64,000 nt of DNA from Diaminobutyricimonas sp. LJ205 (GTDB lineage: Bacteria > Actinomycetota > Actinomycetes > Actinomycetales > Microbacteriaceae), in assembly GCF_009755725.1 (NCBI RefSeq), contig NZ_CP046619.1:3100001-3164000 (forward strand), read 5' to 3'. A model generated the notes under the pieces. It did not search any database and was not told where the DNA came from. It was given only the letters and a program-made list of their open reading frames with translations. Both the position numbers and the translations under genes were made by a program. Positions 9,623-31,640 of the stretch are shown in pieces. The stretch's first letter is position 1. Each line of letters starts with the position of its first letter.

Positions 9623-9629
9623 TACTTGG

Positions 9630-10179: not shown

Positions 10180-10182
10180 CAT

Positions 10183-16515: not shown

Positions 16516-16949
16516 ATATTTGCGGTATCGCTTTGATGCAATGCGGCCAACACGAGCTCTCGGTGACAAGACTGCTCATCCGCCTCAAAACAAAGCAGCG
16601 CAACGCCGCCCTTGCGGGCGAGAGTACGGACGCGTTCGAGGCTCTCCTTCGCAGCAGTCGATTCCAGAATTTGCTCGAAACGAGTTCTTGCTGCGCGCCC
16701 TGCCTCGCCGCGCGTATCAGCGAAGCCCTCACGATTGTCTCGCGGATTCCCCAGGGCCGGGAGATGCTCATAGTCGATGCCAGCCGCCCGGAGCCGGGCA
16801 GCAAGCGCCGTTTTTGACAACCCGCGCTTCCGCGAAATTGGACTGAGCCGGACGTCCACGACTGTGGCGACGCCGCGAAGGCTGAGGCGCGAGAGGAGGC
16901 CGTCCTGATCAAGGCCCTCATAGCCGATCCCGATCACGTCACTCACCAC
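16512..16949 (-). CDS. DUF488 family protein
   Basis: 145 residues. It opens with the family pattern IGIGYEGLDQDG, followed by VVDVRLSPISRKRG and LPALGNPR, and later VALLCFEADEQSCHRELV, which contains the conserved cysteine and C-H-R. DUF488 proteins are uncharacterised, small alpha/beta proteins common in genomic islands. It is convergent with the gene at 15694 with overlapping stops, an arrangement that suggests the two travel together. Confidence 0.9.
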   Translation of the reverse strand: MVSDVIGIGYEGLDQDGLLSRLSLRGVATVVDVRLSPISRKRGLSKTALAARLRAAGIDYEHLPALGNPRDNREGFADTRGEAGRAARTRFEQILESTAAKESLERVRTLARKGGVALLCFEADEQSCHRELVLAALHQSDTANI

Positions 16950-17163
16950 AGTTACTAGTCTCGCATCCGCACGTCGTCAGCCTGCTCACAGCACCTGCCG
17001 GACCTCGTGCAACGCGACGCGGAATCCGCTCACGGACTCAGCGTCGTCCCAAACAGTTTGATGCCGACTCGGTTGTTCTTGAGGGGGCTCGGTCGCAAGG
17101 TTCAAGCCACGGCGGACGACGGACTCCCTTCGGTACCCCGCGCGCCGCGCGCCGGAGTCAGCT

Positions 17164-17207
17164 GCGAAGCGGCGATGACATCGAACATAATGCCATCGCC
17201 GCTTCGC
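17164..17207. terminator. Hairpin terminator of the second MFS operon
   Basis: GCGAAGCGGCGATG (17164-17177) pairs perfectly with 17194-17207, with a 16-nt loop. It lies 9 bp past the stop of the MFS gene at 17217 on the minus strand. Confidence 0.75.
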
Positions 17208-17216
17208 CAATTCGGA

Positions 17217-18611
17217 TTAGCCCTGGAGGACTTCGTCACCCGGAGCGGCAGCCGCTGAGAGAGCCGCGCGCTTTCGGATACGGTCCGCGTAGCGGTCGAT
17301 CAAGAACATTGCTGAACCGCCCAGCACAAGCAGAGCCGCGATCAGGATGAACGGCAATGTCTCGCTCCCGGATGCCGTGATGATCGCGCCGGTCAGGTAC
17401 GGTCCCGCGAATCCGCCGAGGCTGCAGATCGAGTTCACCAGCGCGATCGCCGTCGCGGCAGCGGCGACGGCGAACAGCTTCGGCACGATGCTGAACAAGG
17501 CTGCCGCGACGGACGATGTGCACACCGCGAGCATGCACAGGCCAGCAAGCATCATGAATGGCGAGTTCGAGAATGTCACGATCAGTGCACCGAGGGCTCC
17601 GAACGACGTGAGTCCGAGCGCCCAGGCGCCATAGCGGAGCGAGCGGCCGATCAAACGGGAGGTAACGAGAGCGGCGGTGACGCCCGCAACGGCGGGGATT
17701 GCCACGATCCATGCGACTTGCACCGGATCGAGGCTGAATCCGTATTGCACGTTGAAATTCGTCACCATGGTGGGGAGGAAGAACGTTGTCGTGTACGCGG
17801 CGTAAGGCACCGTGAAATACGCGAAGCCCAAGACCCAGGTGCGCCAGTCCTTCAGCCCCTGTGCGATGCTGCTGTGTTCACCGCCAGGGATTTCGCTCTG
17901 TTCCTTTGCCAGGTCTGCCTCGACAAGTTCCGCTTCGGAGTTCGAAAGCCAGGTTGCGCGCCTCGGGTTATCCGGGAGCAGGAACAGGACCATGATGCCG
18001 AGAACGATCGGGACAATTCCAGTGACGAGGAACATGAAGCGCCAACCAGAGAGGCCGAGGACCTGTGTGGCTTCGCCCCACTGGATGAGGGCGGACATCA
18101 CCGGTCCACCGAAGATTGCCATGCTTCCCGCACTCGCGAAGAATATGCCGTAGGCCCAGGCCCGCGTTCTTGCAGGAAGCCAAAGCGTGAGGTAGAACAA
18201 CACACCCGGCGCGAACCCCGCCTCGCAGATGCCCAGCAGGACGCGGAAGATGCCCAGCGTCCATTCGTTGGGTGCCCACGCGGAAATCGCCTGGACGATC
18301 CCCCAGGTGATGATGATCCGCGAGATCCAGCGTCGTGCGCCGAACTTCTGCAGGAGCATGCTGCTGGGCACTTCAAAGAACACGTAGCCGATGAAGAACA
18401 CACCGGAGACGATTCCAAAGGCTGCGGCCGTGAGCGCTAGTTCCTGGTTCATGCCGGCGGGGCCCGCATAGGCGAGGGCCGCGCGATCTGCATTGGCGAT
18501 GAAGTACAGCACGCACAGGAACGGCATTAGCCGCCACAGGATCTTGGTGTAGACGGCCTTCTGGGCGGGGGATTGCTCCCCTGCGCGCTTGTCGAGGGAA
18601 ACGGTATTCAT
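17217..18611 (-). CDS. MFS transporter, anion:cation symporter type
   Basis: 464 residues with about 12 membrane segments, of the same ACS-type organic-acid importer class as the one at 12097, judged by the N-terminal LMPFLCVLYFIANADRAAL pattern and the central loop layout. Start ATG 18611 follows AGAGAAGAGAAACC. It is the third gene of a minus-strand operon (lyase-family enzyme, SDR, MFS), 34 bp after the SDR gene. It probably imports the substrate that the two enzymes process. Confidence 0.88.
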   Translation of the reverse strand: MNTVSLDKRAGEQSPAQKAVYTKILWRLMPFLCVLYFIANADRAALAYAGPAGMNQELALTAAAFGIVSGVFFIGYVFFEVPSSMLLQKFGARRWISRIIITWGIVQAISAWAPNEWTLGIFRVLLGICEAGFAPGVLFYLTLWLPARTRAWAYGIFFASAGSMAIFGGPVMSALIQWGEATQVLGLSGWRFMFLVTGIVPIVLGIMVLFLLPDNPRRATWLSNSEAELVEADLAKEQSEIPGGEHSSIAQGLKDWRTWVLGFAYFTVPYAAYTTTFFLPTMVTNFNVQYGFSLDPVQVAWIVAIPAVAGVTAALVTSRLIGRSLRYGAWALGLTSFGALGALIVTFSNSPFMMLAGLCMLAVCTSSVAAALFSIVPKLFAVAAAATAIALVNSICSLGGFAGPYLTGAIITASGSETLPFILIAALLVLGGSAMFLIDRYADRIRKRAALSAAAAPGDEVLQG

Positions 18612-18645
18612 GGTTTCTCTTCTCTTCTTTGAGCTGAGCGGCGGG

Positions 18646-19554
18646 TTACGCCAGGGAGGAAACGAGGTTCGCCGGACGATACGACCGGGCAAGTTCCTCG
18701 GCGTGCCGAGAAACGGATTCCGGGGTTGGGTGGGTGATTACGTAGGGGTGGTTGTTCAGGACCGCATCGAGCACCATCGGCCCGACCCAGTCCGGGTCGA
18801 TTGCCTGGGAGAAATAGGTAACCTCGGCCTGGTCGGTGACGATCTCCTTGCCTTCGGCGCCTGCCATTAGCCCGGCGTTCTGGGTGTAGGTTTCCCACGG
18901 GATTACATGGCGTGTTGCCGCTTGTTCTGCCTTGGGACGCAGCCGTTCGCTTGTGGAGATGCGGGTTTTCACCGAGCCCGGATACAGGACGGAAACCCCG
19001 ATGTTGAAACCGGCGGCCTCGTATTCAGCGCGGGTTGCCAGTGATAGCCCGTCAACCGCGGCTTTAGCTGCGGTGTAGGCGGCGTGCCCGGGTGACGCGT
19101 GCAGGGTCGCCAACGACGAGGTGTTGATGATGTGCTTAGGCGCGGTGACCTGACGCATCCGCGGGACGAATGCCCGGTGGCCGTTCAGGACGCCCCAGAA
19201 GTTGACGTTCATCATCCACTCGAAGTCTTCGATGCTGGCGTCCCAGCTGGCGCGGAACGGACGCCAGGTGACACCGGCGTTGTTCGCGAGCACCGCGATG
19301 TCGCCGAACTCGTCGTAGGCGGTGGCGGCGAGCGCCTCGACTTGGTCGAGCTTCGAAACATCCGTTGGTACGGCGATGCTCCGGACTCCGAGGGCTTCGG
19401 CTTCCGCGCTCACCTTCGCTGCGGCCTCCGGGTCGATGTCGGCGATGACGACGTTCACGCCGTTCTTGGCGAGGGTGAGCGCAATTGAGCGGCCCATGCC
19501 GCCGCCGGAGCCGGTGATTACCGCGCCGCGGCCTTGGAGTTCCTCTAGTTTCAT
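18646..19554 (-). CDS. Short-chain dehydrogenase/reductase
   Basis: 302 residues, classical SDR. Cofactor motif TGSGGGMG at 14-21, D at 39-41 suggesting NAD preference, NNAG at 91-94, catalytic Ser about 146-147, and Tyr160-x3-Lys164 (YTAAK). The C-terminal extension past residue 250 is longer than in minimal SDRs. The ATG is preceded by AAAGGA. It lies between the lyase-family gene (23-bp gap) and the MFS gene, so it most likely oxidises the imported hydroxy acid. Confidence 0.92.
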   Translation of the reverse strand: MKLEELQGRGAVITGSGGGMGRSIALTLAKNGVNVVIADIDPEAAAKVSAEAEALGVRSIAVPTDVSKLDQVEALAATAYDEFGDIAVLANNAGVTWRPFRASWDASIEDFEWMMNVNFWGVLNGHRAFVPRMRQVTAPKHIINTSSLATLHASPGHAAYTAAKAAVDGLSLATRAEYEAAGFNIGVSVLYPGSVKTRISTSERLRPKAEQAATRHVIPWETYTQNAGLMAGAEGKEIVTDQAEVTYFSQAIDPDWVGPMVLDAVLNNHPYVITHPTPESVSRHAEELARSYRPANLVSSLA

Positions 19555-19577
19555 GTCAGGGTCCTTTCCTTTCGCCG

Positions 19578-20528
19578 TCAGGCGTTGACGTTGTTGACGT
19601 AGTCGCGTTGCTGTTCCTCAGGGAGGAATGCCTCTTCCATGCGCCGTACGTCGGCGTAGGAGGGGCGCGCGAATCCGTCGCCCCAGCCGACTCCGTACTC
19701 GGTTCCTTGGGCGGCGGCGATCTTCTTGATGTAGTCATCCATCGGCTCGTAGGTGCCCGCCTTCTTGACATCCAGAAGCAACCGCCAGGCTTCATGCACT
19801 CCGGGGAGGATGAACGGGACGATCTCTATCGACTGACCCATCGCAGAGAGTTCCGCCATCGGGGGACGCGGTTCGATGCTGGGGGAGGGAATCGCGTAGG
19901 CGGGTCCGGGCGTCTCGGAGAGCGCGAGGCGAATTTGGTCCCAGGTGTGAAAGCCTTCGTAGAAGATGACGTCGACGCCGGTCTCCTCCCGGTATAGCTG
20001 GCCGCGTCGGATGGCCTCTTCGACGCTTCCACCGGCGGCACCGTAGCCGTCGGTGCGGGCGACAAGGACAAAGTCGGGGTCATACTTGTCCCGTGCTTCG
20101 ACGGCCGCGTTGAGCCTGCCGATCGCTTCCGCGTCGGACACCAACGCAATTCCAGGCTGGCCGCCGGCTTTCTTGGGCTCCTTTTGGTCCTCGATGTGAA
20201 TGCCGGCGACACCGGCGTCGATGAACTCCCGAACCGTTCGGACAACGTTGACCGGAGCGCCGTATCCCGTGTCTGCGTCGCAGTAGACCGGGATGTCGAC
20301 CGAGCGTGCGACGCGACGCGCGTGATCAACCACCTCGGTGAGCGTGACGTAGCCGACATCGGCAACGCCATGCTCCCACCATGCTGAGATTCCGCCTGAA
20401 ACCTCGAATGCCTCGAAACCGGCGGCCTCCGCCATCTGAGCGTGGATAGGCAGCACTCCGAACGGCACGAGAGTGGTTTGAGAATCTTGGAACAACGCTC
20501 TCAGTCGAGCGCCCTTGGTCTGGGTCAT
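19578..20528 (-). CDS. Isocitrate lyase/PEP mutase family enzyme
   Basis: 316 residues of the isocitrate lyase/PEP mutase superfamily. The metal site is DADTGYG at 84-90 and IEDQ at 112-115. Its catalytic loop reads KKAGGQPG where isocitrate and methylisocitrate lyases have KKCGH or KRCGH, so the catalytic cysteine is replaced by alanine. This argues against a simple lyase identity and for a hydrolase, decarboxylase or other member. First gene of the operon, divergent from a LysR regulator 106 bp away, with AAGGAGG before the ATG. It is the functional counterpart of the enzyme at 10183, but the two are not close in sequence. Confidence 0.88.
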   Translation of the reverse strand: MTQTKGARLRALFQDSQTTLVPFGVLPIHAQMAEAAGFEAFEVSGGISAWWEHGVADVGYVTLTEVVDHARRVARSVDIPVYCDADTGYGAPVNVVRTVREFIDAGVAGIHIEDQKEPKKAGGQPGIALVSDAEAIGRLNAAVEARDKYDPDFVLVARTDGYGAAGGSVEEAIRRGQLYREETGVDVIFYEGFHTWDQIRLALSETPGPAYAIPSPSIEPRPPMAELSAMGQSIEIVPFILPGVHEAWRLLLDVKKAGTYEPMDDYIKKIAAAQGTEYGVGWGDGFARPSYADVRRMEEAFLPEEQQRDYVNNVNA

Positions 20529-20633
20529 ATTGCCATCGCCTCCTTCTGACTGGATGTGAATCTACGGGGGCAGTTCCGTTGTGTCCAATGCATTCTCATG
20601 GCGGATGTGATGCAATTGACTCATGAGGACGCC
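20529..20633. promoter_or_regulatory. Divergent lyase operon / LysR control region
   Basis: Intergenic region between divergent genes. CAATGCAT and ATGCAATTG form an imperfect dyad with about 17 bp between the halves, a possible LysR-type site. No promoter hexamers could be assigned with confidence. Confidence 0.35.
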
Positions 20634-21545
20634 ATGCTGGACCTGAATAAGCTCAATCACTTCGCGGTGCTCGCTCGCACACTGAACTACACGCATGCCG
20701 CCGACGAGCTGGCCCTGTCCCAATCGGCACTCACGCGCAGCATCCAATCGTTAGAGAAGTCGCTGAGCCTTCGCCTGCTTGACCGGTCCCGGTCAGGCGT
20801 CACATTGACATCGGCAGGGGTGGATGCCCTTCGAATTGCTGATGAATTACTTGCCCGGGGGAAGGCAGCCGAGGACTCAATGCGGGCAACGGCCAAGGGC
20901 TCCGGAGGTCGGGTCGCCTTCGGCATCGGCCCAATCGCGGCCATGCACATCCTGCCGAAAATGATGGCTGAGTTCGAGACGGAACTCTTGGGGATGTCGG
21001 TCGATGTCCGCACCGAGATTCCTCAGATCCTGGAACGTCAGTTACTCACCGGTGAGATTGACTTCTTCCTAGCAAGGTTCCCAGAGGGAGGCGTATCTCC
21101 GGGCATCGAAGTGGACTGGCTGGACAAGACCATCCCAAACGCGATCGTGCGCCGCGAGCACCCACTCGCCGGTAGCGCCGAACTCGATCCATTCGAGCTC
21201 AAACACTTCCCCAAGGTGGCTGGCCATGGGTTCAAAGAGACGATCAGCCGTGTTCCAGACACTGCTCGACGGGCCTGCTACCAGCCGAACATCGAGTACG
21301 ACGTGCTCGGAATGTTCTACGAGTCCGCTGCAAAATCCGACCTCGTTCTGTTCGGAGCGTTCCAAACCGCAACTGATGTCTTCGTGAATCTTGAGATTCC
21401 GGCCATTGACGCGGCCTACATGGTCAACGACGTCGCGATATTTCGCATGGAGGGAAGGACCCTGAGCCGTACGACGGTGAAGGTTCAGGAGTTTGTCCGG
21501 CAAAATTACGCTCGGATCGCCAGGCCGGCTTCTACGGTCCGCTGA
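20634..21545 (+). CDS. LysR family transcriptional regulator
   Basis: 303 residues. The N-terminal winged HTH is typical: LNKLNHFAVLARTLNYTHAA, then LALSQSALTRSIQSLEKSL and LLDRSRSGVTLT. The rest is the LysR substrate-binding domain. I chose ATG 20634 because GAGGA precedes it and the HTH begins right there; earlier ATGs at 20610 and 20598 exist. It is divergent from the lyase/SDR/MFS operon and is likely its activator, using a pathway intermediate as co-inducer. Confidence 0.92.
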   Translation: MLDLNKLNHFAVLARTLNYTHAADELALSQSALTRSIQSLEKSLSLRLLDRSRSGVTLTSAGVDALRIADELLARGKAAEDSMRATAKGSGGRVAFGIGPIAAMHILPKMMAEFETELLGMSVDVRTEIPQILERQLLTGEIDFFLARFPEGGVSPGIEVDWLDKTIPNAIVRREHPLAGSAELDPFELKHFPKVAGHGFKETISRVPDTARRACYQPNIEYDVLGMFYESAAKSDLVLFGAFQTATDVFVNLEIPAIDAAYMVNDVAIFRMEGRTLSRTTVKVQEFVRQNYARIARPASTVR

Positions 21546-21554
21546 TACCTTGCC

Positions 21555-21785
21555 CTATGTCTCGGGCATCGTAAGTACGCGGTCGGGATTCCCGGAGCGG
21601 AGTAGTTCCACCGGTGCGTGACCGTCGAGAACCTCGCTTGGGGTTACGAGCCATTGGGCGACTGTCCACGCGAATCGGCGTTCCGGGTCGATCAGTGTGA
21701 GCACCTCGGCTAGATGCGGAAGCGGTTCGCCGCTCGGACTGAATTGGAACACCGCGCTGGGCAGCCGCGGATAGCTCAGGTCCTC
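21555..21785 (-). pseudogene. Truncated tandem copy of the antitoxin-like gene
   Basis: The minus strand reads YPRLPSAVFQFSPSGEPLP, LTLIDPER, WTVAQWLV and APVELLRSG, paralogous to the C-terminal half (YPSFQFEETPLPE, LDTLDPAR, WTIAAWLV, SPAELMRSG) of the intact gene at 21810. The N-terminal half is gone and its junction is a 21-bp direct repeat. A short GTG-started frame (21752) survives but would make only the C-terminal part. Confidence 0.7.
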
Positions 21786-21823
21786 GGGTTAGTACCTCAT
21801 GGCCTCGGGTTAGTACCTCATGG
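21782..21823. repeat. Two tandem copies of a 21-bp repeat
   Basis: The 21-bp unit at 21782-21802 is repeated without change at 21803-21823 and its first 6 bp occur again at 21824-21829. The unit contains the last codons and stop of the gene at 21810 (EAMRY then TAA), so the stop region was duplicated, probably by slippage or in the event that made the truncated copy. Confidence 0.9.
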
Positions 21824-22187
21824 CCTCGGCGATAAGGGCCGACTCCTGCAGGACTACTGCCACGTGGCCGCTGCGCATGAGTTCCGCGGGCGATGAGCCA
21901 TTGAAGATATCGTGCTTGGAAACGAGCCATGCGGCGATGGTCCAGCTATCCAAGCGAGCTGGATCGAGGGTGTCGAGTACGGCACTGAGCTCGGGGAGAG
22001 GGGTTTCCTCGAACTGGAAGCTTGGGTACACCAGGTGGCCATCCGCGAGTGGGACCGCGAGGAGATCCCGGCTCTTTGTATGTGTGATGACGTCTTCAAC
22101 CGAGGTGTGGAGCAGTCGCGCGACTCCCCCGGTCGTATAGAACGGGCCAACTTTCCTGTCCCAGAACTGGGCCGGCGTCTCGTACAT
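21810..22187 (-). CDS. Antitoxin-like protein (MbcA/ParS/Xre C-terminal type)
   Basis: 125 residues. The N-terminal part resembles a degenerate HTH (YTTGGVARLLHTSVEDVITHT). The C-terminal part has the pattern WTIAAWLV-x8-NGSSPAELMRSG, similar to the DUF2384 domain that ends MbcA/ParS/Xre antitoxins. A RES-domain toxin normally partners these, but none is here; instead the upstream gene is a metallophosphoesterase whose stop overlaps this start (TAATG). The phosphoesterase may be the functional partner. The antitoxin call is pattern-based. Confidence 0.6.
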   Translation of the reverse strand: MYETPAQFWDRKVGPFYTTGGVARLLHTSVEDVITHTKSRDLLAVPLADGHLVYPSFQFEETPLPELSAVLDTLDPARLDSWTIAAWLVSKHDIFNGSSPAELMRSGHVAVVLQESALIAEAMRY

Positions 22188-23086
22188 TAATCAGCCCCCG
22201 ACCCTGACGGAGTTGAGTCGGAAATACGCACGGCGTGGCCGTTGAGGTTCAGGATCTGGACGTCGAGTGTGGCCACGTCGAGGATGGCCTGACTAGCGGA
22301 GCGTGAGTCACCGGCCGCCATGTCGAGAACCACGACACGGCAGCTGAACTTCGGGTCCGCGTCATATGTCACCGTTTCGTCCACCGGGTAGTGGTAGTGC
22401 CCACTCAGACTGACGCGTGGACGTACGCGGAGGAATCCTTCATGGAATTTCCTCCGGCCGGCGGCCGCGTATGCCCGCCCTTCGGGGCTCCAGTAGCGGT
22501 CGGTGCGGGCAAGCATGGCGTCCAACGCGGGCACATGCAGGGGCGCATCGTGTGCGATGAGAACATCGGCGGAATCTGTTCCGAGAACGTCGAGGTCCAC
22601 GTCGGTGATTGATTCCTCCGGCCACCAGCTCGCGGCGTTGGCGTGTCTGCCTGCGGCAGCGGGCGATACGCGGTGCTCGCGGTCGATCGAGTTCGCGCCA
22701 CCCAGGGCGGCCAAGGTGCTGCCGGAGGCAAGGCGCACCCTGTAACCGCGGGGGACGTAGCCGACGTTGCTTCGGACCCAACGGATGCCATCCTCGCCTT
22801 GATCGAACTCGCGCAAGCGCGGGTGCCAGTCGTGATTTCCATCGACGAAGAACAGCGTCTGCTGCTGGTCGGCGAGGCGTCTCTCCAGCTTGTCGAGGTC
22901 ACGCCCCCAATCAACGCCAGGCCAGACGAAACCGAAGTCGCCGAGCACCGTGACGACCGCGATGCCATGAGATTTGAACAGGCGGGAGGCCGCAAGCAGG
23001 TGTCCGAGGTTGCCGTGGGTATCGCCGACGAAACCAATTCTTGGGACAGTCCCAAACGTTTGCATCGCGTACGGCATGGATGTCAT
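22187..23086 (-). CDS. Calcineurin-like metallophosphoesterase
   Basis: 299 residues with the complete metal-binding set: GDTHGN at 21-26, VLGDFG at 48-52, GNHDW at 83-87, IAHDAP, and GHYHYP near residue 220. This makes it a probable two-metal phosphoesterase, perhaps on nucleic acids or nucleotides. It overlaps by one base the antitoxin-like gene downstream, so both are one unit. A second, broken relative lies at 15412. It starts at ATG 23086; a further in-frame ATG is at 23077. Confidence 0.88.
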   Translation of the reverse strand: MTSMPYAMQTFGTVPRIGFVGDTHGNLGHLLAASRLFKSHGIAVVTVLGDFGFVWPGVDWGRDLDKLERRLADQQQTLFFVDGNHDWHPRLREFDQGEDGIRWVRSNVGYVPRGYRVRLASGSTLAALGGANSIDREHRVSPAAAGRHANAASWWPEESITDVDLDVLGTDSADVLIAHDAPLHVPALDAMLARTDRYWSPEGRAYAAAGRRKFHEGFLRVRPRVSLSGHYHYPVDETVTYDADPKFSCRVVVLDMAAGDSRSASQAILDVATLDVQILNLNGHAVRISDSTPSGSGAD

Positions 23087-23184
23087 GAATTCCTCCGGCG
23101 ACTCGTCTGACCTGCGGATCGTTCCGGTAACGACCGACCGCGGGACTGCGTGTCACGCTAGTTGGATGTCGCGTTATGTCGCGC

Positions 23185-23200
23185 CCCGTGCAGGAAGACA
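23185..23200 (+). repeat. Left copy of a 16-bp inverted repeat pair
   Basis: CCCGTGCAGGAAGACA is found here and, inverted, at 23990-24005. A near copy (CCCGTGCGGGAAGAC) lies at 23299-23313 next to the stop of the gene at 23315. The two perfect copies flank the helicase-associated gene. Confidence 0.8.
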
Positions 23201-23241
23201 TTCGTTGAGAAGAGAGATGCTGCGGTATGAATCGGTGGGAT

Positions 23242-23294
23242 GGGCGTCTCACGCGGCCTGTAGCGCTGAAAGCTACCGGCCGCGTGAGACGCCC
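23242..23294. repeat. Large hairpin downstream of the helicase-associated gene
   Basis: A perfect 17-bp inverted repeat (23242-23258 with 23278-23294) followed, after one mismatch, by a 5-bp inner stem (GTAGC/GCTAC) and a 7-nt loop. It sits 21 bp past the stop of the gene at 23315 and 155 bp upstream of the phosphoesterase start, so it may terminate the former and insulate the latter. No T-tract. Confidence 0.8.
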
Positions 23295-23314
23295 ACTACC
23301 CGTGCGGGAAGACG

Positions 23315-23917
23315 CTATTGGGTCGGCGGCCGGCTGCCCCAGGTCCAAGTTGGTAGTTGCTCAAGGCTCCTGACGCGACGATCGGGCAGGGTCTTCTTCC
23401 AGTAGTACATGCGCTGCTTGTCCGCCCACGCCGCGAGACTCCGCTCAGCTTGATCGATGCTGCGGTAAGCGGGCGCATGCCCGCGCGTGACGGTGAAGTC
23501 GCGGTAGGTGTCGCGCCTCGCGTTCCATCGTTCGTCGAGTGGAGAGTGGCTATATCCGGGGACGCAATCGAGCCGTTCAATCTGGTACGAAACGAGCTGC
23601 TGAAGCCCGATGGCTTTCCGCTGGTCGCGCACCCAGGCTGCCGCGCGACGTTCAGCGACCGAGATATGCGCACGAGGAAGCCTGTTGTTCTCGCGGGGCA
23701 TCCGCCCCGCGCGGGCAACGAAGGCATCGAGCTCCCGGATCCGCCGCACCCATAGGGCAGGGCCAGACCCCGATTCCATCGAGCTTTGCTCCGGGGTGAT
23801 GTCGGCCCGGTAGTAGAGGAGCGATCGTCGGTCATCCGGGGTGAGATCGCGATCGTCTCGAAGACTGATCTCGGCATACTTGGCGTGCAGACGGCCCAGC
23901 GGCGTGGTGCCGGACAT
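23315..23917 (-). CDS. Helicase-associated (HA) domain protein
   Basis: 200 residues with ATG 23917 after GGAAGGGAA. It has an internal W-x2-R-x-R repeat style (RIRELDAFVARAGRMPRENN) and a C-terminal repeat (TRGHAPAYRSIDQAERSLAAW then DKQRMYYWKKTLPDRRVRSLEQL), the pattern of helicase-associated domains often found alone in actinobacteria. These are thought to bind nucleic acids. No helicase is fused or adjacent. The gene lies between perfect 16-bp inverted repeats. Confidence 0.7.
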   Translation of the reverse strand: MSGTTPLGRLHAKYAEISLRDDRDLTPDDRRSLLYYRADITPEQSSMESGSGPALWVRRIRELDAFVARAGRMPRENNRLPRAHISVAERRAAAWVRDQRKAIGLQQLVSYQIERLDCVPGYSHSPLDERWNARRDTYRDFTVTRGHAPAYRSIDQAERSLAAWADKQRMYYWKKTLPDRRVRSLEQLPTWTWGSRPPTQ

Positions 23918-23989
23918 CGTGTTCCCTTCCGACGCGCGCACCGTGCGCAGCGTCGAACGGTCTATGCGCGGCACGATTCGCGTCGGATC

Positions 23990-24005
23990 TGTCTTCCTGC
24001 ACGGG
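23990..24005 (-). repeat. Right copy of the 16-bp inverted repeat pair
   Basis: TGTCTTCCTGCACGGG is the exact reverse complement of 23185-23200. Locally it also forms a small GTCTTCC/GGAAGAC hairpin with a 6-nt loop. Confidence 0.8.
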
Positions 24006-24077
24006 AAGACAGCACGAGCTCTCATCGCTACGGTCGGAGGCCCCGGATCCCGCCCGGCGAACTGTCAGGGAGGAATC

Positions 24078-24395
24078 ATGGGCACTTCACGATCAACGGG
24101 CAACGGCGAGGTCGCAGAACTTACAGGCGGCGAAGGCGGCCGATGGCGGGTCGTCACACTGCATTCTGAGTATCACTTCGATCTCGACATGGCCACGGTT
24201 GAGCGGGTTCCGGGACCGAATGCGGCGCCCACGGTCAATGACGTCAAACGACCGATTCGCAGCATCGGCGCCTGCCAGGTGGGCGAACGAGGCAGGTGGA
24301 CGATGCACCCGGACGATTTCGAAATCGACTACTACTGGCAGATCTCCGGCGAGATCCAGCAGATCGAGCGCATCAGCGAGCGCGCTCATGACTAA
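24078..24395 (+). CDS. Small hypothetical protein, first of a related pair
   Basis: 105 residues with ATG 24078 after GGGAGGAA. The pattern WRVVTLHSEYHFDLDMATVERVPG near the start is a small beta-strand unit that recurs in the second half of the next protein (VRVHTVSGSRYEIDFDAMRLRRLP in part). No known domain. The next gene starts inside its last codons, so they are translationally coupled. Confidence 0.65.
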   Translation: MGTSRSTGNGEVAELTGGEGGRWRVVTLHSEYHFDLDMATVERVPGPNAAPTVNDVKRPIRSIGACQVGERGRWTMHPDDFEIDYYWQISGEIQQIERISERAHD

Positions 24396-25020
24396 CGCCA
24401 GCGGCATCTTCTATCGGATCGGCGCCGGTGACCCCGAGCCGCTGGCCTCCTGGGCACAAGCCGCCGAGCTGATCACCACCACGGGGGTGGCGGCAGTGAC
24501 ATTCCTCCGCCAAAGCGACCCGCTGAACCTTCGGCGCGAGGTGATCGTTACACGCGAGAAGGATGGGTACGCCGCAGCCTTCACCTCCGTCGTCGGCGAC
24601 ATGCCAATGCCGTCCATCCGGGTTCGCACGGGCGTGCCCGACGATCAGCTGTTCCGCGGAATCGAGGCGTTTCTCGCGCCGGTTCGCCGTCCGAGTGAAC
24701 CTGATGACGAGCCAACCGAACCCGCACGCCGCCGGGGCTCGGTGCGAGTGCACACCGTCAGCGGCTCCCGCTACGAGATTGACTTCGACGCCATGCGCCT
24801 CCGGCGCCTTCCATCCGAGCCGTCACCTCAAGGACCTGATGCGCCGGAGTCCGCATGCCTTCGACGCGACTTCGAATGGGTGAAGATGTTGCGGGTCATC
24901 CGCCTAGTCGTGGGCGAGTCGGCCGTGTTCAGGCTGGAACCGCTGGGGCACCCGCGTGCTGTCGCCTTCACGACTCGTGCGACCACCCGTGTGCTGATGA
25001 TCGAGCCGCTCGCGGAATAG
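24388..25020 (+). CDS. Hypothetical two-part protein related to the preceding gene
   Basis: 210 residues. The N-terminal ~100 residues are a separate unit of unknown fold; the C-terminal ~100 residues share a strand pattern with the gene before (RVHTVSGSRYEIDFD). ATG 24388 overlaps the upstream stop by 8 bp. It is convergent with the transposon-associated HTH gene at 25073. The function is unknown; possibly cargo of the transposon. Confidence 0.65.
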   Translation: MTNASGIFYRIGAGDPEPLASWAQAAELITTTGVAAVTFLRQSDPLNLRREVIVTREKDGYAAAFTSVVGDMPMPSIRVRTGVPDDQLFRGIEAFLAPVRRPSEPDDEPTEPARRRGSVRVHTVSGSRYEIDFDAMRLRRLPSEPSPQGPDAPESACLRRDFEWVKMLRVIRLVVGESAVFRLEPLGHPRAVAFTTRATTRVLMIEPLAE

Positions 25021-25072
25021 ATCGGGCGGTCATCGCATGCCAAGACGGCGCATCTCCGAAGCTGACACGTCC

Positions 25073-25468
25073 CTAGCCCGGCGCGGCGCGTCCGTCGAGG
25101 CGGGTAAGCGAGTTAGTCCCCACCCACGTGGTTGGGGGCGGCAGCACCTTGAGTTCGACGCCGGTGATGTCTCCGAGTACGGACTCCGCGCGGGCAATGT
25201 CTTCCAGTCGCATTACGGCGGTTCCGCGCAGAACTCTGGATACTCGGTTGACCGAGTCGCCGACCGCAGCGGCGTATGCCCGAACAGAGCCGAATCTCAG
25301 GATCGCGGCCCGCCTGATGCGGGTCGCGTAAAGGTGTTGCAACTGGGCAGCGCGGATCAGGACGGCCTCCCCGGGGTAGGCGGGCGTCTTCCAGTGGAGC
25401 GCTTCGCTGGATCCGAAGGTGAAGTCATCGAAGGCGTAGTCGCGGGGTCTATAGCGGGGAGTGGACAT
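25073..25468 (-). CDS. HTH regulator of the Tn7-like element
   Basis: 131 residues, starting at ATG 25468. A helix-turn-helix region is visible: AAAVGDSVNRVSRVLRGTAV followed by RLEDIARAESVLG, which resembles an Xre-type HTH. It is divergent from tnsA with 100 bp between them, and that gap holds two inverted repeats that are probably its operators. It probably represses transposase expression. A similar location of a small HTH gene next to tnsA is seen in other Tn7-like elements. Confidence 0.65.
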   Translation of the reverse strand: MSTPRYRPRDYAFDDFTFGSSEALHWKTPAYPGEAVLIRAAQLQHLYATRIRRAAILRFGSVRAYAAAVGDSVNRVSRVLRGTAVMRLEDIARAESVLGDITGVELKVLPPPTTWVGTNSLTRLDGRAAPG

Positions 25469-25473
25469 GCTTC

Positions 25474-25529
25474 GAGCAATTCTACGAGAAATTGGGGCTA
25501 ATTGCTCCTTTAGTGGAGCTAAAAGCTCC
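25474..25529. promoter_or_regulatory. Probable operators between the HTH gene and tnsA
   Basis: GAGCAATT (25474-25481) is inverted as AATTGCTC (25500-25507), and GGAGCTAAAAGCTCC (25515-25529) is a tight dyad. The half-site core AGCWATT/GAGCT recurs. Both lie between divergent starts, as expected for autoregulation by the HTH protein. Confidence 0.6.
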
Positions 25530-25568
25530 GTTCTGCAGCGGCAGCACTCTGTCGCCCACAGGTAGAGC

Positions 25569-26324
25569 ATGAACAACTCACTTACACAGGCCGCAGAGGC
25601 CGCCGCACGCTCCGCATCCCTGCAATGGAAATCCCCCGTCACGGGTCTGAGAGCGAAAGCAGCCAGCCCCGCGCTCCTGCTTGACGAGCTCTATCTCGCT
25701 TCTCCGATTCGGACCGGGAACAGGTACCCGCGCCAACGGAACTACCACGGGCACCACTACTTCGCTCAGACCGGGGCGCTTGTCGAGCACGAGTCGCTGC
25801 TTGAGGCCACGACGTTGGCGTGGCTCGATATGCATTGCGACATCGTCGCCATCGCAGCGCAGCCAATGAAGATGACGTTCGCTGATGGCTCGGTCCACTT
25901 CCCCGACTTCTTCGCCCTGCATGGCGACTACAGCCAGGTCGTCTACGACGTGAAACCGAAAGAGCTCATCACCGAGAAAGTCCAACTGCAGTTCGCGAAG
26001 ACGCGCGCTTTGTGCGCCCGTATCGGCTGGGAGTACGAAGTCCACTCGGAACTGCCGAATCAGGTCCGCGTGAACCTGAACTGGATTAGCGCGTTCAAAC
26101 ACCATGGCTACCACCCCGGAGCCGAGCGAACCGCGCAGCTGACCGCGGCTCTGACCGAGCCGCTTCCGTTGAAGGCAGCGGCCGAGCTGCTCCAACAGGC
26201 ACGGCTACCCGACGCGCGTGCCGCTCTTTACCACCTCGTGTGGAACCGCGAACTTCGGCTCGACCTCACCCAACGACTCTCCGACCGCACCCTGATTGAA
26301 CGGAACACTAATGCCCACGCTTAA
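25569..26324 (+). CDS. tnsA: TnsA-like transposition endonuclease
   Basis: 251 residues. The restriction-enzyme-like core is intact: E75 or E79 in HESLLEATTLAWLD, D113 in HFPDFFAL, and D127-V-K129 in VYDVKP (E, D, and a lysine of the type seen in TnsA). In Tn7, TnsA cuts the 5' ends while TnsB cuts the 3' ends, giving clean excision. The C-terminal part (residues 180-245) is probably a winged helix that contacts TnsB or C. The ATG lies 100 bp after the start of the divergent HTH gene; the end overlaps tnsB by 14 bp. Confidence 0.88.
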   Translation: MNNSLTQAAEAAARSASLQWKSPVTGLRAKAASPALLLDELYLASPIRTGNRYPRQRNYHGHHYFAQTGALVEHESLLEATTLAWLDMHCDIVAIAAQPMKMTFADGSVHFPDFFALHGDYSQVVYDVKPKELITEKVQLQFAKTRALCARIGWEYEVHSELPNQVRVNLNWISAFKHHGYHPGAERTAQLTAALTEPLPLKAAAELLQQARLPDARAALYHLVWNRELRLDLTQRLSDRTLIERNTNAHA

Positions 26325-28230
26325 CACCGCCGAAGTCATCCAGCTCACCGATGGCGACCACCAGTACGTTGACCGCCGCGACAACATCGTGCGGTTGCGT
26401 CGCCTCGCCGACAACCAGTACATCGACATGGACACGGCCGAACTGTCGCGTCGCGTCGTCGGACTCACTCCAGCACTGCCCAAGCCCCTGCACCTGTACG
26501 CCGAGGTCACGGACAAGCAGGTCGACGCCGGCAACACCTGGGCCATCCACCTCCGCGAGCTCACCACCGGCATCCATCCCATCACCAACGAACGGCGACC
26601 CGAGTACGACATCGACAAGCGCACACAGGATGAACGCATCGCCGAGAAGGTCCTCGAACTGCAACGGGCCAACATCAAGGCGTCTCGCCGCACGGTGATG
26701 CGCAAGCTGCAGAAGTTCCGTCAGCTCGGGGACGTCGGTGTCATCGACGGCCGCGCGCTTCGCGACCACGGCACCCTCGGCAATTTGGACCCTCGGGTGC
26801 GCGACGCACTTTGCGTGAGCATCGAGCGCCAGACCAACCGCTCAACCGGAACGCAGTCCCGAATCATCGCGGAGGCCAAGGGCGAGCTTCGCCACCGGTT
26901 CGGAGCGGACGAAGCCGACGCGATGCTCCCGCACGATTCCACCCTGTATCGCCATCTCACCGCTCTCACAGCGGGGAAGTACACCACCGGGAGCGCCAAG
27001 ACGCGGCGCTCCACCGCCAACCGACCGAGAAGGACCATGACCACTCAAACCGAAATCCTCCCAGGAGCCCAAATGCAAATCGACTCAACCGTGCTGGACG
27101 TGCTGGTCCGCACCAGCAACCCTGAAAAGCCAGCGCGACCGACGCTGACCATCATGATGGACGTCGCGACCCGCAGCATCGTCGCCTACACGATGCGGTT
27201 GAAGGCAGCAAAGGGCGTTGACCACGTCACCCTGCTCGCACAAGCGCTGACCCCTGCCCAGAATCGACCCGACAAGTCACTGTTCCGTCAGGCCCTCCAA
27301 GCGGCGAACAGCCAGTGCAGCCTGATGAGCCCGGAGGAACGCGCAGCGTTGGACCGTCAGCGGCCGTACATCCACCCGCGTCGAATCATGATGGACAACG
27401 GTAAGGACTTCCTCAGCGAGGTCTTCAAAGCCGCAACGCGGAAGTACGGCGTGTCCACGGTCCTGTCCGCTCCTCACACCCCAACGGACAAGGGCATCGT
27501 TGAGCGGACCTTCGGCTCCATCAACACGCTGTTCTCGCAGTACCGCCCGGGATACGTCGGTCGTTCCCCGGAACACCGCGGATTCAAGGTCGAAAAAGAG
27601 AACCTGCTCGACCTGCACACACTGTTCGAGCTGTTCGACGACTGGGTGGTCCGCGATTGGCAGAACCGTCCACACAGTTCATTGCGCGACCAGCGCAACC
27701 CCAGCATCAAGCTGTCCCCGAATCAGGCATTCGCCCAGGCCGCGGCGGTCACCGGCAACCTTCATATTCCCATCGCCGCGGACGACTACATCGACCTGCT
27801 GCCGACCAAGTACGTCCGCATTCAGAGCGTGGGCGTTCAGGTGAACAGTCTCAAGTACGACTCGGTCGAAATCCATCCCTTGCGCGGAACGAAGTCGAAC
27901 CTGACCGCACACAAGGGGAAGTGGGCCGTCAAATATGACCCCTACAACCGGCAGACCGTGTGGGTCGCCGGACCCGACAACACCTGGATTGCCTGCCCGC
28001 TCCGCGATATGGAGCTGATGGCCCAGCCAGCCGGATTCGACGACGAACCCGACAATCCCAGCGTCGCCTCCGAGCGCGACGACGTCGCTGTAGTCAACGC
28101 CGTCACGAACGGCACCCCGATGCACAACCCAGCAGCGGCTACGTCTGAAAGCGACGAACCAACTGCGGCGGACATCCCAATCGTCCGCATTACCAACATC
28201 GATATCGAGGAGAGCCCCTATGCCTATTAA
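26311..28230 (+). CDS. tnsB: TnsB-like DDE transposase
   Basis: 639 residues. An N-terminal HTH region (RRTVMRKLQKFRQLG) is followed by the integrase core with D258 (QIDSTVLD), D362 (RRIMMDNGKD) and E398 (GIVERTFGS); 35 residues separate the last two, the classic DD-35-E spacing. The beta-barrel Mu-type C-terminal domain comes next, ending in an acidic tail. It should bind the end iterons, cut the 3' ends and join them to the target. I chose ATG 26311 inside tnsA rather than 26296 because it lies where homologs start; both are possible. Confidence 0.93.
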   Translation: MPTLNTAEVIQLTDGDHQYVDRRDNIVRLRRLADNQYIDMDTAELSRRVVGLTPALPKPLHLYAEVTDKQVDAGNTWAIHLRELTTGIHPITNERRPEYDIDKRTQDERIAEKVLELQRANIKASRRTVMRKLQKFRQLGDVGVIDGRALRDHGTLGNLDPRVRDALCVSIERQTNRSTGTQSRIIAEAKGELRHRFGADEADAMLPHDSTLYRHLTALTAGKYTTGSAKTRRSTANRPRRTMTTQTEILPGAQMQIDSTVLDVLVRTSNPEKPARPTLTIMMDVATRSIVAYTMRLKAAKGVDHVTLLAQALTPAQNRPDKSLFRQALQAANSQCSLMSPEERAALDRQRPYIHPRRIMMDNGKDFLSEVFKAATRKYGVSTVLSAPHTPTDKGIVERTFGSINTLFSQYRPGYVGRSPEHRGFKVEKENLLDLHTLFELFDDWVVRDWQNRPHSSLRDQRNPSIKLSPNQAFAQAAAVTGNLHIPIAADDYIDLLPTKYVRIQSVGVQVNSLKYDSVEIHPLRGTKSNLTAHKGKWAVKYDPYNRQTVWVAGPDNTWIACPLRDMELMAQPAGFDDEPDNPSVASERDDVAVVNAVTNGTPMHNPAAATSESDEPTAADIPIVRITNIDIEESPYAY

Positions 28231-29317
28231 ATTCCACACCGACAACCGTCCCGGCCGCATCGACCGCCTGGAGCCGCTGACCAACTACCTCAAGTCAGCT
28301 GAGCCGGTCATGCCTGAAGCTCTGAGTGATAGCGCGTACAGGAAGTTGAGCGATGCAGCTCGCAACGAGTATGACGACGCCCGCGCCGCCTACCTCTCCG
28401 GCGGCATCTTCCTGAGGACCGGGTACTACTCCGAGGCGCGCCGTATGCTCTTCGACTGCTTCGAGAACAACCATGCGAACAACACGGGCAACACCGGCAC
28501 CATGCTCAGCGGAGAGGGCACGGTGGGCAAGACCACCATCGCTAAGAAGCTTATGAAGTGGGTTTATGCCGACTACAAGCGGGTGTTCCCGGACTTCGAG
28601 CGGCACAACCGAATCCCAGTCGTCTACGTCGAAGTTCCCACCTCGTCGACGGGGAAAGCATTGATGGTCGGGTTCGCCGACTTCTTGGGGCTCACCTATC
28701 GTCCAGGCGATTCGATGACGAGCCTGCGGGGCCGTGTGACCCAAGCGCTGAACGACGCTGGCACCCAACTGGTCGTTGTTGATGAACTCCATAACCTGTC
28801 CCGAAGTACCGTCGCCACGGGCGAGACGGTGCAGATTCTGAAGGAACTCCACGACGACCTGCCCGCCACCTTCATGTACGCGGGCGTGAAGCTGACGACC
28901 GAGGGAAAGCTTCTCGACGGACCGCTCGGCCAACAGGTGGCCGGTCGGTTCTCCATCCTCGAAATGCACAGGTACAGCATCGGGAACCCCCAGAGCAAAG
29001 CAGTGTGGAACGGAGTTGTCGAAGGCTTCGCCCGCAATCTCACCCTCCGCCATCAAGAGCCGGACGCGTTGTTGGAGATGGCGACGTATCTGTGGGAACG
29101 AACCAACGGAAACATCAGCAGCCTGTCGAGCCTGCTGACCGGGACCGCCCAACATGTCATCCGAAACCCTCACATAACGGAGGAGCGCCTCGACAAAGCA
29201 CTTCTAGACACACGCGTGCTCGACTTCGCCGCCGAAACAGCTCGCCGGGCACGCATCAAGCGGAAAGCAGACCCAATGTCGGTCGAGAACATCACGAAGG
29301 GGCTGGCGTACGCATGA
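28220..29317 (+). CDS. tnsC: TnsC/TniB-like AAA ATPase
   Basis: 365 residues. Walker A GEGTVGKT at 98-105 and Walker B LVVVDELHNL with D188 and E189 mark an AAA ATPase of the TniB/TnsC group, which links the target selector to the transposase and provides target immunity in Tn7-like systems. It overlaps tnsB by 11 bp, and its stop overlaps the tniQ-like start by ATGA. At 365 residues it is longer than typical Tn5053 TniB (about 300). Confidence 0.92.
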   Translation: MPIKFHTDNRPGRIDRLEPLTNYLKSAEPVMPEALSDSAYRKLSDAARNEYDDARAAYLSGGIFLRTGYYSEARRMLFDCFENNHANNTGNTGTMLSGEGTVGKTTIAKKLMKWVYADYKRVFPDFERHNRIPVVYVEVPTSSTGKALMVGFADFLGLTYRPGDSMTSLRGRVTQALNDAGTQLVVVDELHNLSRSTVATGETVQILKELHDDLPATFMYAGVKLTTEGKLLDGPLGQQVAGRFSILEMHRYSIGNPQSKAVWNGVVEGFARNLTLRHQEPDALLEMATYLWERTNGNISSLSSLLTGTAQHVIRNPHITEERLDKALLDTRVLDFAAETARRARIKRKADPMSVENITKGLAYA

Positions 29318-31275
29318 ACATCCTCGAACGGCTCTATCCATTCGACGTTCGCCCCCGCCACCGGGAAACGGTCGAGAGCTACACGCAGCGACTCCTCCGC
29401 GCCAACTTCGACACGCCAGAACACCGGACCTACTTGACCGGACTAGTCACGACATCGATGAAGCGGGCCGAGCGGGCGGAAGCCTGGTTGGAAGTACTTC
29501 GGATGAAGACCAAGCGCGCGGTGCGTTACTTGGTCGGCGACCGCACTGCATGGCTCACCCATTCAGATGGCGAAAACTGCGAACAGTGTTCCGCTGGTCT
29601 GACGAACCGCTGGATGTGCACTCTGTGCTCACAGGGGGAGCCCATCGAGCAGCACCCGCACTTCGACGAGCTCGTGTGTGTTCGCCACTCCCGCTGGGTC
29701 GGTTTGGATACCGACGTTGAAGCACAGCACTCGGTGGGACAGGGGCACGTCGAGGCTGCGTTGCAGTTCCGAAAACTCCGGCGCAGGCGCCTCTTGGACG
29801 TCCGTCTGTTCAAGATGCTGACTGCCACCGTGTCGACTGCAATGTCAACGCCGGACTCGCCTGCGACCGATTCCTCGACCTTTCCGACAGTCATCGCGCT
29901 GGCACGAGTAATCACCGGTGAGTCGTTCGCTAAGCGGTTCTTCGACCCGGCCGTGCCGTTCGCAGACGCGTACCAGCGGCTCGGCGAAGTGGTGGCCGAC
30001 GCGCTGGGGTTCGCTTCTGCTTCGGTGACGCGGGCAGTGTGGCTTCATGCGCGTCCCACGGTGTTCGCCGTTCGCCACAGCATCATCAGCGGCGAACCAT
30101 TCACGCTCGCGTGGCCGCATGACCTTCCCCTGCACAGGCACATCGTCGAAGGGTTCAGCGCTCGCGTGGCGGACCTTGAACCGTTCGCGAACTACCTCGC
30201 CGCCAGCGGTGACACTGACCTGAGTGCAGTGCTGTTCGGCATCGAAACCGGACAACGAGTCACTCTCGGCCCCGCAATGCGGACGGTCCGACGGCGTGCG
30301 GCCCTCGCCATCTGCACCATGGGTCACCAATTCGAAACCGACTCGACCGGCCCCTACCAAGTGACGCCGCAAGAAGCGCCGCGGTGCCCGGTCTGCAACA
30401 ACCGAATAGTTCAGCCGGGCTACAACGACCTCGCAACGACGCATAGCGATGTCGGACGGGAGCTCGCGGTCGACCAGAATGGCGGCCTAACCGCCGAAGA
30501 CGTCACCGCCAGCTCGAAAACGCAATACATATGGCGTTGCCCCTCCGCCGGTCATCTCTACCCTGCGACCCCATCGAATCGAACCGCTGGACGTTCGAAG
30601 TGTCCCGTGTGCCTCGGGAGACTAATCATCCCCGGCGTCAACGACATCACCAGTACCCATCCAGAACTGGTAGCGGAATGGCACCCGAGCTGGCTCGCGC
30701 TGATTCCGCCGACATCGGTTGGAGCGGGGAGTGACAAGCAGGTGCTGTGGCTCTGCAAGGAGCAGCACATCTTCCTCATGAAGATATGGGACAGGACCCA
30801 CGGACACGGGTGCGACAGCTGCGCGAGAGCACGGACGAGAGCCTCCAAGACAAACCTGGCAGTGACTCATCCTGAGCTGGCGGCCGAGTGGCATCCGACT
30901 TGGAACGGTGCCCACACGCCGGCTGACTACTCGCGCGGTTCCCGAGACGAGATGGCTTGGCTTTGTCCCTTCGGGCACGGATACCGCATGCGCATTGAGC
31001 GGAGAGTAGCCGGATACAAGTGCAAGGTTTGCTCCCGACGGGAGCTCGTCCCAAACGTGAACGACCTCGGCACAACAGACCCTGTTCTGTCCGAGGAATG
31101 GCACCCCTACCTGAATGGGCTCAAAGAGCCGGGCCGTCTCATCGCTGGAACAACCAAGTACTGGTGGCGCTGCCTCACCAACCGGCATGAGGAACAGCAA
31201 AGCGTTCCGCACCGGCGCAAGTCCAACGGTTGCATCAAGTGCTCTCCCGCGGAGCGCATCTTGAACCGAACGTAG
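29314..31275 (+). CDS. tniQ: TniQ-like target selector with C-terminal zinc-ribbon array
   Basis: 653 residues. The N-terminal part has the TniQ pattern: ESYTQRLLRANF, then a zinc finger CEQC with CTLC and VCVRHSRWVG. From about residue 320 a series of zinc ribbons begins. About five repeat units can be seen (ICTMGH with CPVC; WRCPSAGH with CPVC; WLCKEQH with CDSC; WLCPFGH with CKVC; WRCLTNRH with CIKC), separated by spacers of the type N-x6-THPEL-x2-EWHP. This is the treble-clef/DUF4379 type. TniQ/TnsD proteins choose the target site, so these ribbons may recognise a specific DNA or a structural target. The start ATG overlaps the tnsC stop. Confidence 0.85.
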   Translation: MNILERLYPFDVRPRHRETVESYTQRLLRANFDTPEHRTYLTGLVTTSMKRAERAEAWLEVLRMKTKRAVRYLVGDRTAWLTHSDGENCEQCSAGLTNRWMCTLCSQGEPIEQHPHFDELVCVRHSRWVGLDTDVEAQHSVGQGHVEAALQFRKLRRRRLLDVRLFKMLTATVSTAMSTPDSPATDSSTFPTVIALARVITGESFAKRFFDPAVPFADAYQRLGEVVADALGFASASVTRAVWLHARPTVFAVRHSIISGEPFTLAWPHDLPLHRHIVEGFSARVADLEPFANYLAASGDTDLSAVLFGIETGQRVTLGPAMRTVRRRAALAICTMGHQFETDSTGPYQVTPQEAPRCPVCNNRIVQPGYNDLATTHSDVGRELAVDQNGGLTAEDVTASSKTQYIWRCPSAGHLYPATPSNRTAGRSKCPVCLGRLIIPGVNDITSTHPELVAEWHPSWLALIPPTSVGAGSDKQVLWLCKEQHIFLMKIWDRTHGHGCDSCARARTRASKTNLAVTHPELAAEWHPTWNGAHTPADYSRGSRDEMAWLCPFGHGYRMRIERRVAGYKCKVCSRRELVPNVNDLGTTDPVLSEEWHPYLNGLKEPGRLIAGTTKYWWRCLTNRHEEQQSVPHRRKSNGCIKCSPAERILNRT

Positions 31276-31291
31276 TACTCAAACCACATCT

Positions 31292-31324
31292 AACGCCGAT
31301 GGGACTTCATGTCCCGTCGGCGTT
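31292..31324 (+). terminator. Intrinsic terminator of the tns operon
   Basis: AACGCCGATGGGAC (31292-31305) pairs with GTCCCGTCGGCGTT (31311-31324) with one G-U pair, loop TTCAT, followed by CTTTG. A complete rho-independent terminator 16 bp after tniQ. Confidence 0.9.
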
Positions 31325-31340
31325 CTTTGCATTCCCGCGC

Positions 31341-31440
31341 AAACAAGTGCCACATTGTTTGAGAGAAAAGATGCCGCGGGCGATAGATGGCACTTCAGTG
31401 TTTACGCGGATTTCGACGGTACAGAAGTGTCACTCTGGCA
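31341..31440. repeat. Short repeats of AAGTGYCA type
   Basis: CAAGTGCCACA (31344), inverted TGGCACTTCA (31388) and GAAGTGTCACT (31424) are three versions of AAGTGYCAC within 100 bp. They may be internal protein-binding sites at the transposon end, or a remnant of an IS21-type element, whose ends carry multiple such repeats. Confidence 0.55.
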
Positions 31441-31568
31441 AATAATTCACACCAGTTGTCGTTCGCCAAGTGTTTGTTCCTTCTCTCTCATAGCTGGACT
31501 TGTCTCACGCAAAGTCGGACTAAGTGAGCAAAAACGGTGGTTTACACGCACGTTTACCCGTCGTGTTG

Positions 31569-31640
31569 ATCGCAAACCTAGATTTCGGAACGCAAGGATA
31601 GCTTTCGTAACGCAGGATAGTTTCCGTTGAGCGTTCAACA
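31569..31640 (+). repeat. Probable transposon end with three 20-bp iterons
   Basis: Three contiguous 20-bp units: ATCGCAAACCTAGATTTCGG (31569-31588), AACGCAAGGATAGCTTTCGT (31589-31608) and AACGCAGGATAGTTTCCGTT (31609-31628), followed by GAGCGTTCAACA. Units 2 and 3 match at 18 of 20 with two one-base gaps. Read inward the end begins TGTTGAACGCTC, a TGT start as in Tn7-family ends. This is the expected layout of TnsB-binding sites. Confidence 0.7.

Follow-up and report, generated by a model that had tools for sequence, protein, structure and literature searches.

In Tn7, the target selector TnsD reads DNA through C-terminal helix-turn-helix domains. How is a site chosen when the selector of a Tn7-like element ends instead in an array of DUF4379 zinc ribbons? 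This question is raised by a tns operon in the window analysed here, a stretch of 64,000 nucleotides from the 3.22-Mb chromosome of Diaminobutyricimonas sp. LJ205 (G000:C1:3100001-3164000; G and L numbers are labels for compared genomes and loci). We found that the operon belongs to a 41,934-bp element, element A (G000:C1:3089518-3131451), which starts 10,482 bp outside the window, ends at window position 31451 and lies directly behind a tRNA-Gly(CCC) gene (G000:3089442-3089515). A preliminary description of the locus had placed the element at 25073-31640. This extent proved too small, as element A measures 42 kb and begins 10.5 kb left of the window, and it took in repeats at 31564-31640 that belong to a neighbouring element. 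In our judgement it is probable that element A is a complete Tn7-like transposon and that the ribbon array of its TniQ recognises the attachment site.

The operon consists of four overlapping genes on the forward strand, tnsA, tnsB, tnsC and the selector gene. tnsA (25569..26324, +) encodes a TnsA-like endonuclease of an actinobacterial subfamily (NCBIfam TnsA_like_Actin NF033179, 4e-48; PF08722 at 1.3e-4, below cut-off), and tnsB (26296..28230, +) a DDE transposase whose D-D-E residues lie in QIDST, MDNGKD and VERTF (rve 2.2e-5, under the Pfam cut-off; Mu-transpos_C weak) and whose sequence is 35-47% identical to TnsB of the delimited relatives introduced below. The product of tnsC (28220..29317, +) is an AAA ATPase with intact Walker A and B motifs (TniB 8.7e-16, AAA_22 2e-13), and the fourth gene (29314-31275, +) encodes the 653-residue selector. 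The conventional tnsA-tnsB-tnsC core of the preliminary description was therefore present in full together with the 653-residue protein. As in other Tn7-like elements, the catalytic motifs of the three core proteins are intact in translation and a TniQ/TnsD-type selector is part of the operon.

The right terminal inverted repeat of element A (31423..31451, reverse strand) reads TGTGAATTATTTGCCAGAGTGACACTTCT inward, and its left partner, TGTCAATTCTCACGGTATGTGACACTTCT, lies at G000:3089518, with 19 of 32 positions equal together with the target-site duplication. This duplication, CCAGT, occupies 31452..31456, and its left copy (G000:3089513-3089517) overlaps the CCA end of the tRNA-Gly(CCC) gene. 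The part of element A inside the window (1..31451) is defined by the matched ends, by CCAGT on both sides and by a synteny break against G002; synteny between the two genomes holds until 30 bp past the tRNA-Gly(CCC) gene, where the start of element A was placed. The lead to tRNA-Gly came from an end-like repeat at window 31564 that was found again in G002 behind tRNA-Gly(CCC). The repeats at 31564-31640 were rejected as the right end of element A; in sequence and orientation they correspond to the left end that the G002 element has behind tRNA-Gly, and are thus the start of a neighbouring element. An alternative duplication, CGCAC, with ends TGAAAG.../...TTTACA, was dropped at 13 of 32 matching positions versus 19 of 32 for CCAGT. 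A DNA-level comparison of the flanks with same-genus genomes near the window gave no empty site. From its gene content and ends, element A is predicted to move as a cut-and-paste transposon.

Eight elements with a TniQ-ribbon selector, element A included, could be delimited by their ends and 5-bp duplications, and all eight have TGT...ACA inverted ends with the exception of the G974 left end, which starts TGA. Besides element A, three lie at tRNA-Gly(CCC): a 95.9-kb element in G002 (L027; duplication ACCGC; ends TGTCGATCGCAAAGATAGTTTTCGTAACGC and TGTTGATCGCAAATATAGTTTTCGTAACGC) is behind the gene, a 48.9-kb element in G003 (TATTC) is 26 nt behind it, and a 37.2-kb element in G1109 (GCCCG) sits in the loop of its terminator hairpin, where the two flanks, when rejoined, restore the tRNA's own hairpin. 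The 20.6-kb element in G974 (CCAAT) lies directly behind tRNA-Gly(TCC). The remaining sites are 19 bp behind the stop codon of nrdF, a gene named from its translation (G922, GAAAG, 14.9 kb), an intergenic position 96 bp away from where a substrate-binding lipoprotein gene, by our reading one for a zinc transporter, starts (G1101, CGAGA, 21.3 kb), and a second intergenic position, occupied by a tandem-selector element (G002, GGTGT, 36.2 kb). Following the advice of the preliminary description to learn the target from the genes next to the ends, we thus found tRNA-Gly 3' ends within 5-39 bp of five of the eight elements (four CCC, one TCC), and in all five the tRNA is on the tnsA side with the tniQ end distal. 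A 3.3-Mb chromosome has only a handful of tRNA-Gly genes.

Integrases usually act at tRNA 3' ends, and on that ground element A might be read as a tyrosine-recombinase genomic island in which the tns genes are incidental; no other feature favours this reading, and we put its chance close to nil. Such an island would not account for 5-bp duplications and TGT...ACA-type ends on both sides at eight loci, nor for a right end that lies 176-223 bp behind tniQ in G000 and G003. In addition, the tRNA end does not recur as a long att direct repeat, and the ORFs of the window that were read between the ends included none recognised as an integrase.

We asked next what kind of protein the selector is. 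DUF4379 (PF14311) was the sole significant profile match of the 653-residue protein (E 1.8e-45, score 153.4 versus a cut-off of 24.5 bits), and Pfam TniQ (PF06527) gave no match to it. Thirteen relatives went into an AlphaFold2 model (mean pLDDT 82.8), which was compared with solved structures. Residues 1-157 of the model match a TniQ (8fcu_P, Z 6.5), a TnsD (8v32_J, Z 4.8) and several TniQ proteins of type V-K CRISPR-associated transposons (CASTs), and residues 6-318 align with TniQ 6v9q_J (Z 5.0). Apart from scattered low-scoring rows, TniQ/TnsD is the only coherent family matched by the N-terminus, at modest Z values of 4.5-6.5, in keeping with the TniQ core fold of Hel1, zinc finger and Hel2. 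The core, residues 1 to about 326 (29314..30291, +), also aligns over 240 columns (hhalign E 9e-13) with the 281-residue TniQ of a sister element, itself a weak match to Pfam TniQ; a profile comparison with one classical actinobacterial TniQ (G403) aligned 25 columns only. Sub-threshold Pfam TniQ matches occur at the expected position in the relatives L072 and L069, and in the short TniQ copies of G403 (9.7e-4 and 0.0025). We therefore take the N-terminal core to be a divergent TniQ, as the model suggests, and lean on no single modest Z value for this. The TniQ N-terminus claimed in the preliminary description, whose H-S-R-W-V-G motif is found at residues 125-130, holds at the level of predicted structure and only weakly at that of the Pfam profile, which is absent here and below cut-off in relatives. 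A complete lack of TniQ similarity, which that description had named as grounds for giving up its proposal, was not what we saw.

The C-terminal half of the selector, residues about 327-653 (30292..31275, +), is an array of five DUF4379 treble-clef zinc ribbons with C-x3-H...C-x2-C ligands and a 70-residue period, in agreement with the "about five" ribbons first described. The CxxC pairs are at residues 358, 430, 500, 570 and 640 (spacings 72, 70, 70 and 70). Pfam scores four ribbon stretches, and the fifth, degenerate ribbon is at residues 327-361. The ligands C, H, C and C do not vary in any of the 43 ribbon units that were aligned, taken from 14 proteins (43/43); this is partly by construction, as units were chosen by a loose pattern holding most ligands. 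Other positions of the unit are hypervariable in this alignment, for example 55, 59, 60 and 65. It is conceivable, and in our view distinctly improbable, that DUF4379 arrays form a modular DNA-reading system in transposons and related nucleases, in which each 70-residue ribbon would contact a fixed number of bases via a few hypervariable positions, and array length and composition would encode the attachment site.

To place this fusion among its relatives, we searched 199 related genomes with the selector protein and then ran tblastn on the retrieved loci. The order tnsA-tnsB-tnsC-TniQ/ribbons recurs in G003, G002 (twice), G103 and G177; one G002 copy carries two TniQ-ribbon selectors in tandem, and further copies are found in a Frigoribacterium metagenome-assembled genome (51% identity) and two other such assemblies. 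The TniQ core as query matched 13 of 400 genomes of the family, including G974, G1101, G1109 and G922. Selectors carry 3 to 8 ribbons, and ribbon number did not correlate with distance to the tRNA. Loci in Arthrobacter, Mycolicibacterium and Pseudarthrobacter have the same tnsABC and a TniQ of about 260-281 residues free of ribbons. The fusion is present in every relative with full-length tnsABC except this short-TniQ sister clade, and in these relatives the zinc array did not turn out to be a separate, non-target-related protein, an outcome that the preliminary description had said would speak against it. Given that the sister clade combines the same tnsABC with a short, ribbon-free TniQ, the array is likely the site reader, a module standing in place of the helix-turn-helix arrays of TnsD.

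By homology, then, TnsB (DDE) and TnsA (nuclease) would cut and join the TGT...ACA ends, TnsC would bridge TnsA/TnsB to the target selector, and the TniQ N-terminal core would dock TnsC and so bring it to the site. The five-ribbon array would recognise the attachment site, which for element A is the 3' part of tRNA-Gly(CCC), and insertion would follow just downstream with a 5-bp duplication, leaving the tRNA intact. The earlier suggestion that the array may set attachment-site specificity gains support from the recurring tRNA-Gly target; our inference is that the ribbons touch DNA themselves and that the site is set by them and not by the core.

It is unlikely, to our mind, that the ribbons serve as an appendage for dimerisation or for general binding of nucleic acids, with site choice falling to the helical second half of the TniQ core or to a different protein of the element, for instance the helicase-associated (HA) domain protein or the 24388-25020 protein. 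Both proteins are conserved on the tnsA side in several elements, and the core, at about 325 residues, is long enough for a DNA-contacting Hel2. Each of the two proteins, however, goes undetected in some elements, although G003, L027, G974 and G1109 share the tRNA-Gly target: the HA protein in those of G003, G002/L027 and G922, and the 24388-25020 protein in those of G003, G974 and G1109. The array is also more conserved than the core between two tRNA-Gly(CCC) users, element A and G1109 (array 51%, core 31%), compared with element A and G1101, which uses another site (array 42%, core 38%).

Several points weigh against recognition of the site by the array. The comparison of array and core identity covers few pairs only. 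Distances from the tRNA end are 5, 5, 22, 26 and 39 nt, so no fixed ruler as in Tn7 is seen, and two of the eight elements are intergenic and lack an evident common sequence; neither the variable distance (5 to 39 nt) nor the intergenic sites are explained by array reading. An unbiased scan of the 104-kb locus gave one end pair for element A with 18 of 28 matches, a score also reached by 9 of 60 composition-keeping shuffles, which makes the whole-locus scan weak for element A alone. When the scan was confined to 85 bp downstream of the tRNA and 700 bp downstream of tniQ, none of 2000 shuffles reached the score of the element A end pair, and the other delimited elements have 21-29 end matches. 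Finally, DUF4379 proteins of known structure are solely kinetoplastid mitoribosomal or assembly-factor proteins, so that RNA binding fits equally; the C-terminal part of our model indeed matches DUF4379 proteins of kinetoplastid mitoribosomes.

This last point, and the fact that most targets found are tRNA genes, could be taken to mean that what the array recognises is RNA, be it an R-loop or the tRNA itself (nascent or mature), instead of duplex DNA, and that insertion is thereby directed to tRNA genes. We regard this as very improbable. Three of the eight targets are not tRNA genes (the nrdF 3' end and two intergenic sites), DUF4379 arrays of the same taxonomic order are joined to DNA-nuclease-like domains, and the TnsD/TniQ selectors of known Tn7-like elements bind DNA. 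The nuclease fusions, at L033, L049 and L029, combine DUF4379 arrays in this taxonomic order with MTES_1575/DUF559-like (PDDEXK-type) nuclease domains, without TniQ; these actinobacterial proteins share the zinc-ribbon arrays and differ in their effector, a nuclease in place of TniQ. They lend some support, short of proof, to a site-reading role of the array.

We also considered a CAST. Over the whole length of element A there are no short-spaced direct repeats of at least 22 bp (CRISPR-like), and no cas gene was recognised among the ORFs read, part of the cargo ORFs having been run against a cas profile library. The CAST reading was rejected on these grounds, in line with the preliminary description, which had reported neither CRISPR nor Cas genes. 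Just upstream of tnsA in G103 (L028:14574-14720), a repeat core of type I-E-like kind, ACCCCCGCACGCGCGGGGA, recurs at 63-bp spacing with similar spacers, and no cas gene was seen near this locus.

With Tn7 and its attTn7 site at the glmS 3' end, element A shares the TnsABC core, the N-terminal TniQ fold, insertion just downstream of a conserved gene and the 5-bp duplication; it differs in a target that is mostly tRNA-Gly and in a tniQ end distal from the target. Genes for tRNAs are known attachment sites of TniQ/TnsD, for example in type I-B2 and I-D CASTs and their relatives (PMC11406308), which share protein-guided tRNA-gene sites with element A, whereas element A has no CRISPR-Cas, separate TnsA and TnsB, and the ribbon array. 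PMC10293859 describes long TniQ/TnsD proteins as thought to bind the site themselves and short ones as using a partner. TnsF of Tn6022 likewise has zinc fingers in a target-selecting protein working with TniQ, but it is described there as a separate protein with an inactive tyrosine-recombinase part, while the DUF4379 ribbons here are fused to TniQ. Element A probably belongs to the same broad clade as the actinobacterial clade 2 Tn7-like elements of PMC8649781, to judge from host phylum and TnsA_like_Actin; that paper mentions Tn7-like elements downstream of tRNAs and describes the actinobacterial clade, none of whose members was tested. A term search of its main text found neither the word "zinc" nor a ribbon-array selector, nor are such ribbons mentioned in the main text of the target-selector survey (PMC10293859), and among the literature searched no paper pairs TniQ with DUF4379 or "zinc ribbon". 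Thus tRNA attachment sites and ordinary Tn7 anatomy were already known, and the ribbon selector module is, as far as we have seen, new.

Further end-like sequences were seen around the attachment sites. Directly behind element A, window 31457-31563 begins TGTCGTTCGCC and resembles another element's left end at the same CCAGT; window 31564-31708 begins TGTTGATCGCAAACC and is a third left end, which shares 83% identity with the one that lies behind tRNA-Gly in G002, and patches beyond 31564 correspond to internal sequence of the G002 element with matches of up to 91%. Stacked ends of this kind are the trace that repeated insertion at one attachment site would leave. The right flank of the 36-kb G002 element also resembles another element end, so this site has been used repeatedly; its left outer end, near G002:C1 564851, adjoins TTATCCACAG, which is DnaA-box-like, and a second CTATCCACAG is about 30 bp away. 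Behind about 30 tRNA-Gly(CCC) genes looked at we found mostly unrelated sequence, and in two genomes (G029, L181:3095-3150; G009, L182) an end-like TGTC... without transposase directly behind the tRNA, then arsenic-resistance-like and restriction-like genes. Neither locus has a tnsC or a partner end within 17 kb, and the end-like sequences are suggestive of element remnants.

Other searches were less productive. An initial contig scan with the single selector protein gave no match, plasmid records gave no match to the TniQ core, and two matches in phage records were set aside, as they cover mainly the DUF4379 part. For G177, tRNA-Gly was rejected as the target: a tRNA-Gly(CCC) gene 31 kb upstream has an ordinary terminator behind it, and the search for a pair of ends came up empty; an end-pair search in G103 likewise gave no site. 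At the G177 locus (L030:7108-11566) two selectors of the TniQ-DUF4379 type stand in tandem, with a DUF4096 (IS4/5-type transposase) domain at their ends.

The tns operon of element A is accompanied by accessory and cargo genes. Divergent to it lies a gene for a small helix-turn-helix protein (25073..25468, −; HTH_31 weak), a probable regulator of the operon, whose homologue at the same place in the G003 element (L025:16523-16990) has significant helix-turn-helix matches. The conserved 24388..25020 (+) accessory protein is also present in both G002 elements and that of G922 (tblastn, 35-40% identity). The HA domain protein (23315..24025, −; PF03457 3.1e-12) has homologues in L026, L067, G974, G1101 and G1109, on the tnsA side of related elements. 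The cargo includes a fused restriction enzyme-methyltransferase of type IIG/ISP (4300..9579, +; PADLOC PDLC03597, E 0). A few kb from it, the gene at window 15625-16515 matches the PADLOC candidate defence family PDC-M19B (1.7e-38).

Taken together, these findings suggest that an actinobacterial Tn7-like clade, so far little studied, holds a DNA-reading module of a new class for inserting large DNA at chosen sites without CRISPR. With sites at nrdF, in two intergenic regions and at tRNA-Gly genes of two isoacceptors, the eight delimited elements offer a set on which to test how array sequence relates to site, and they supply a testable function for DUF4379, a domain of unknown function.

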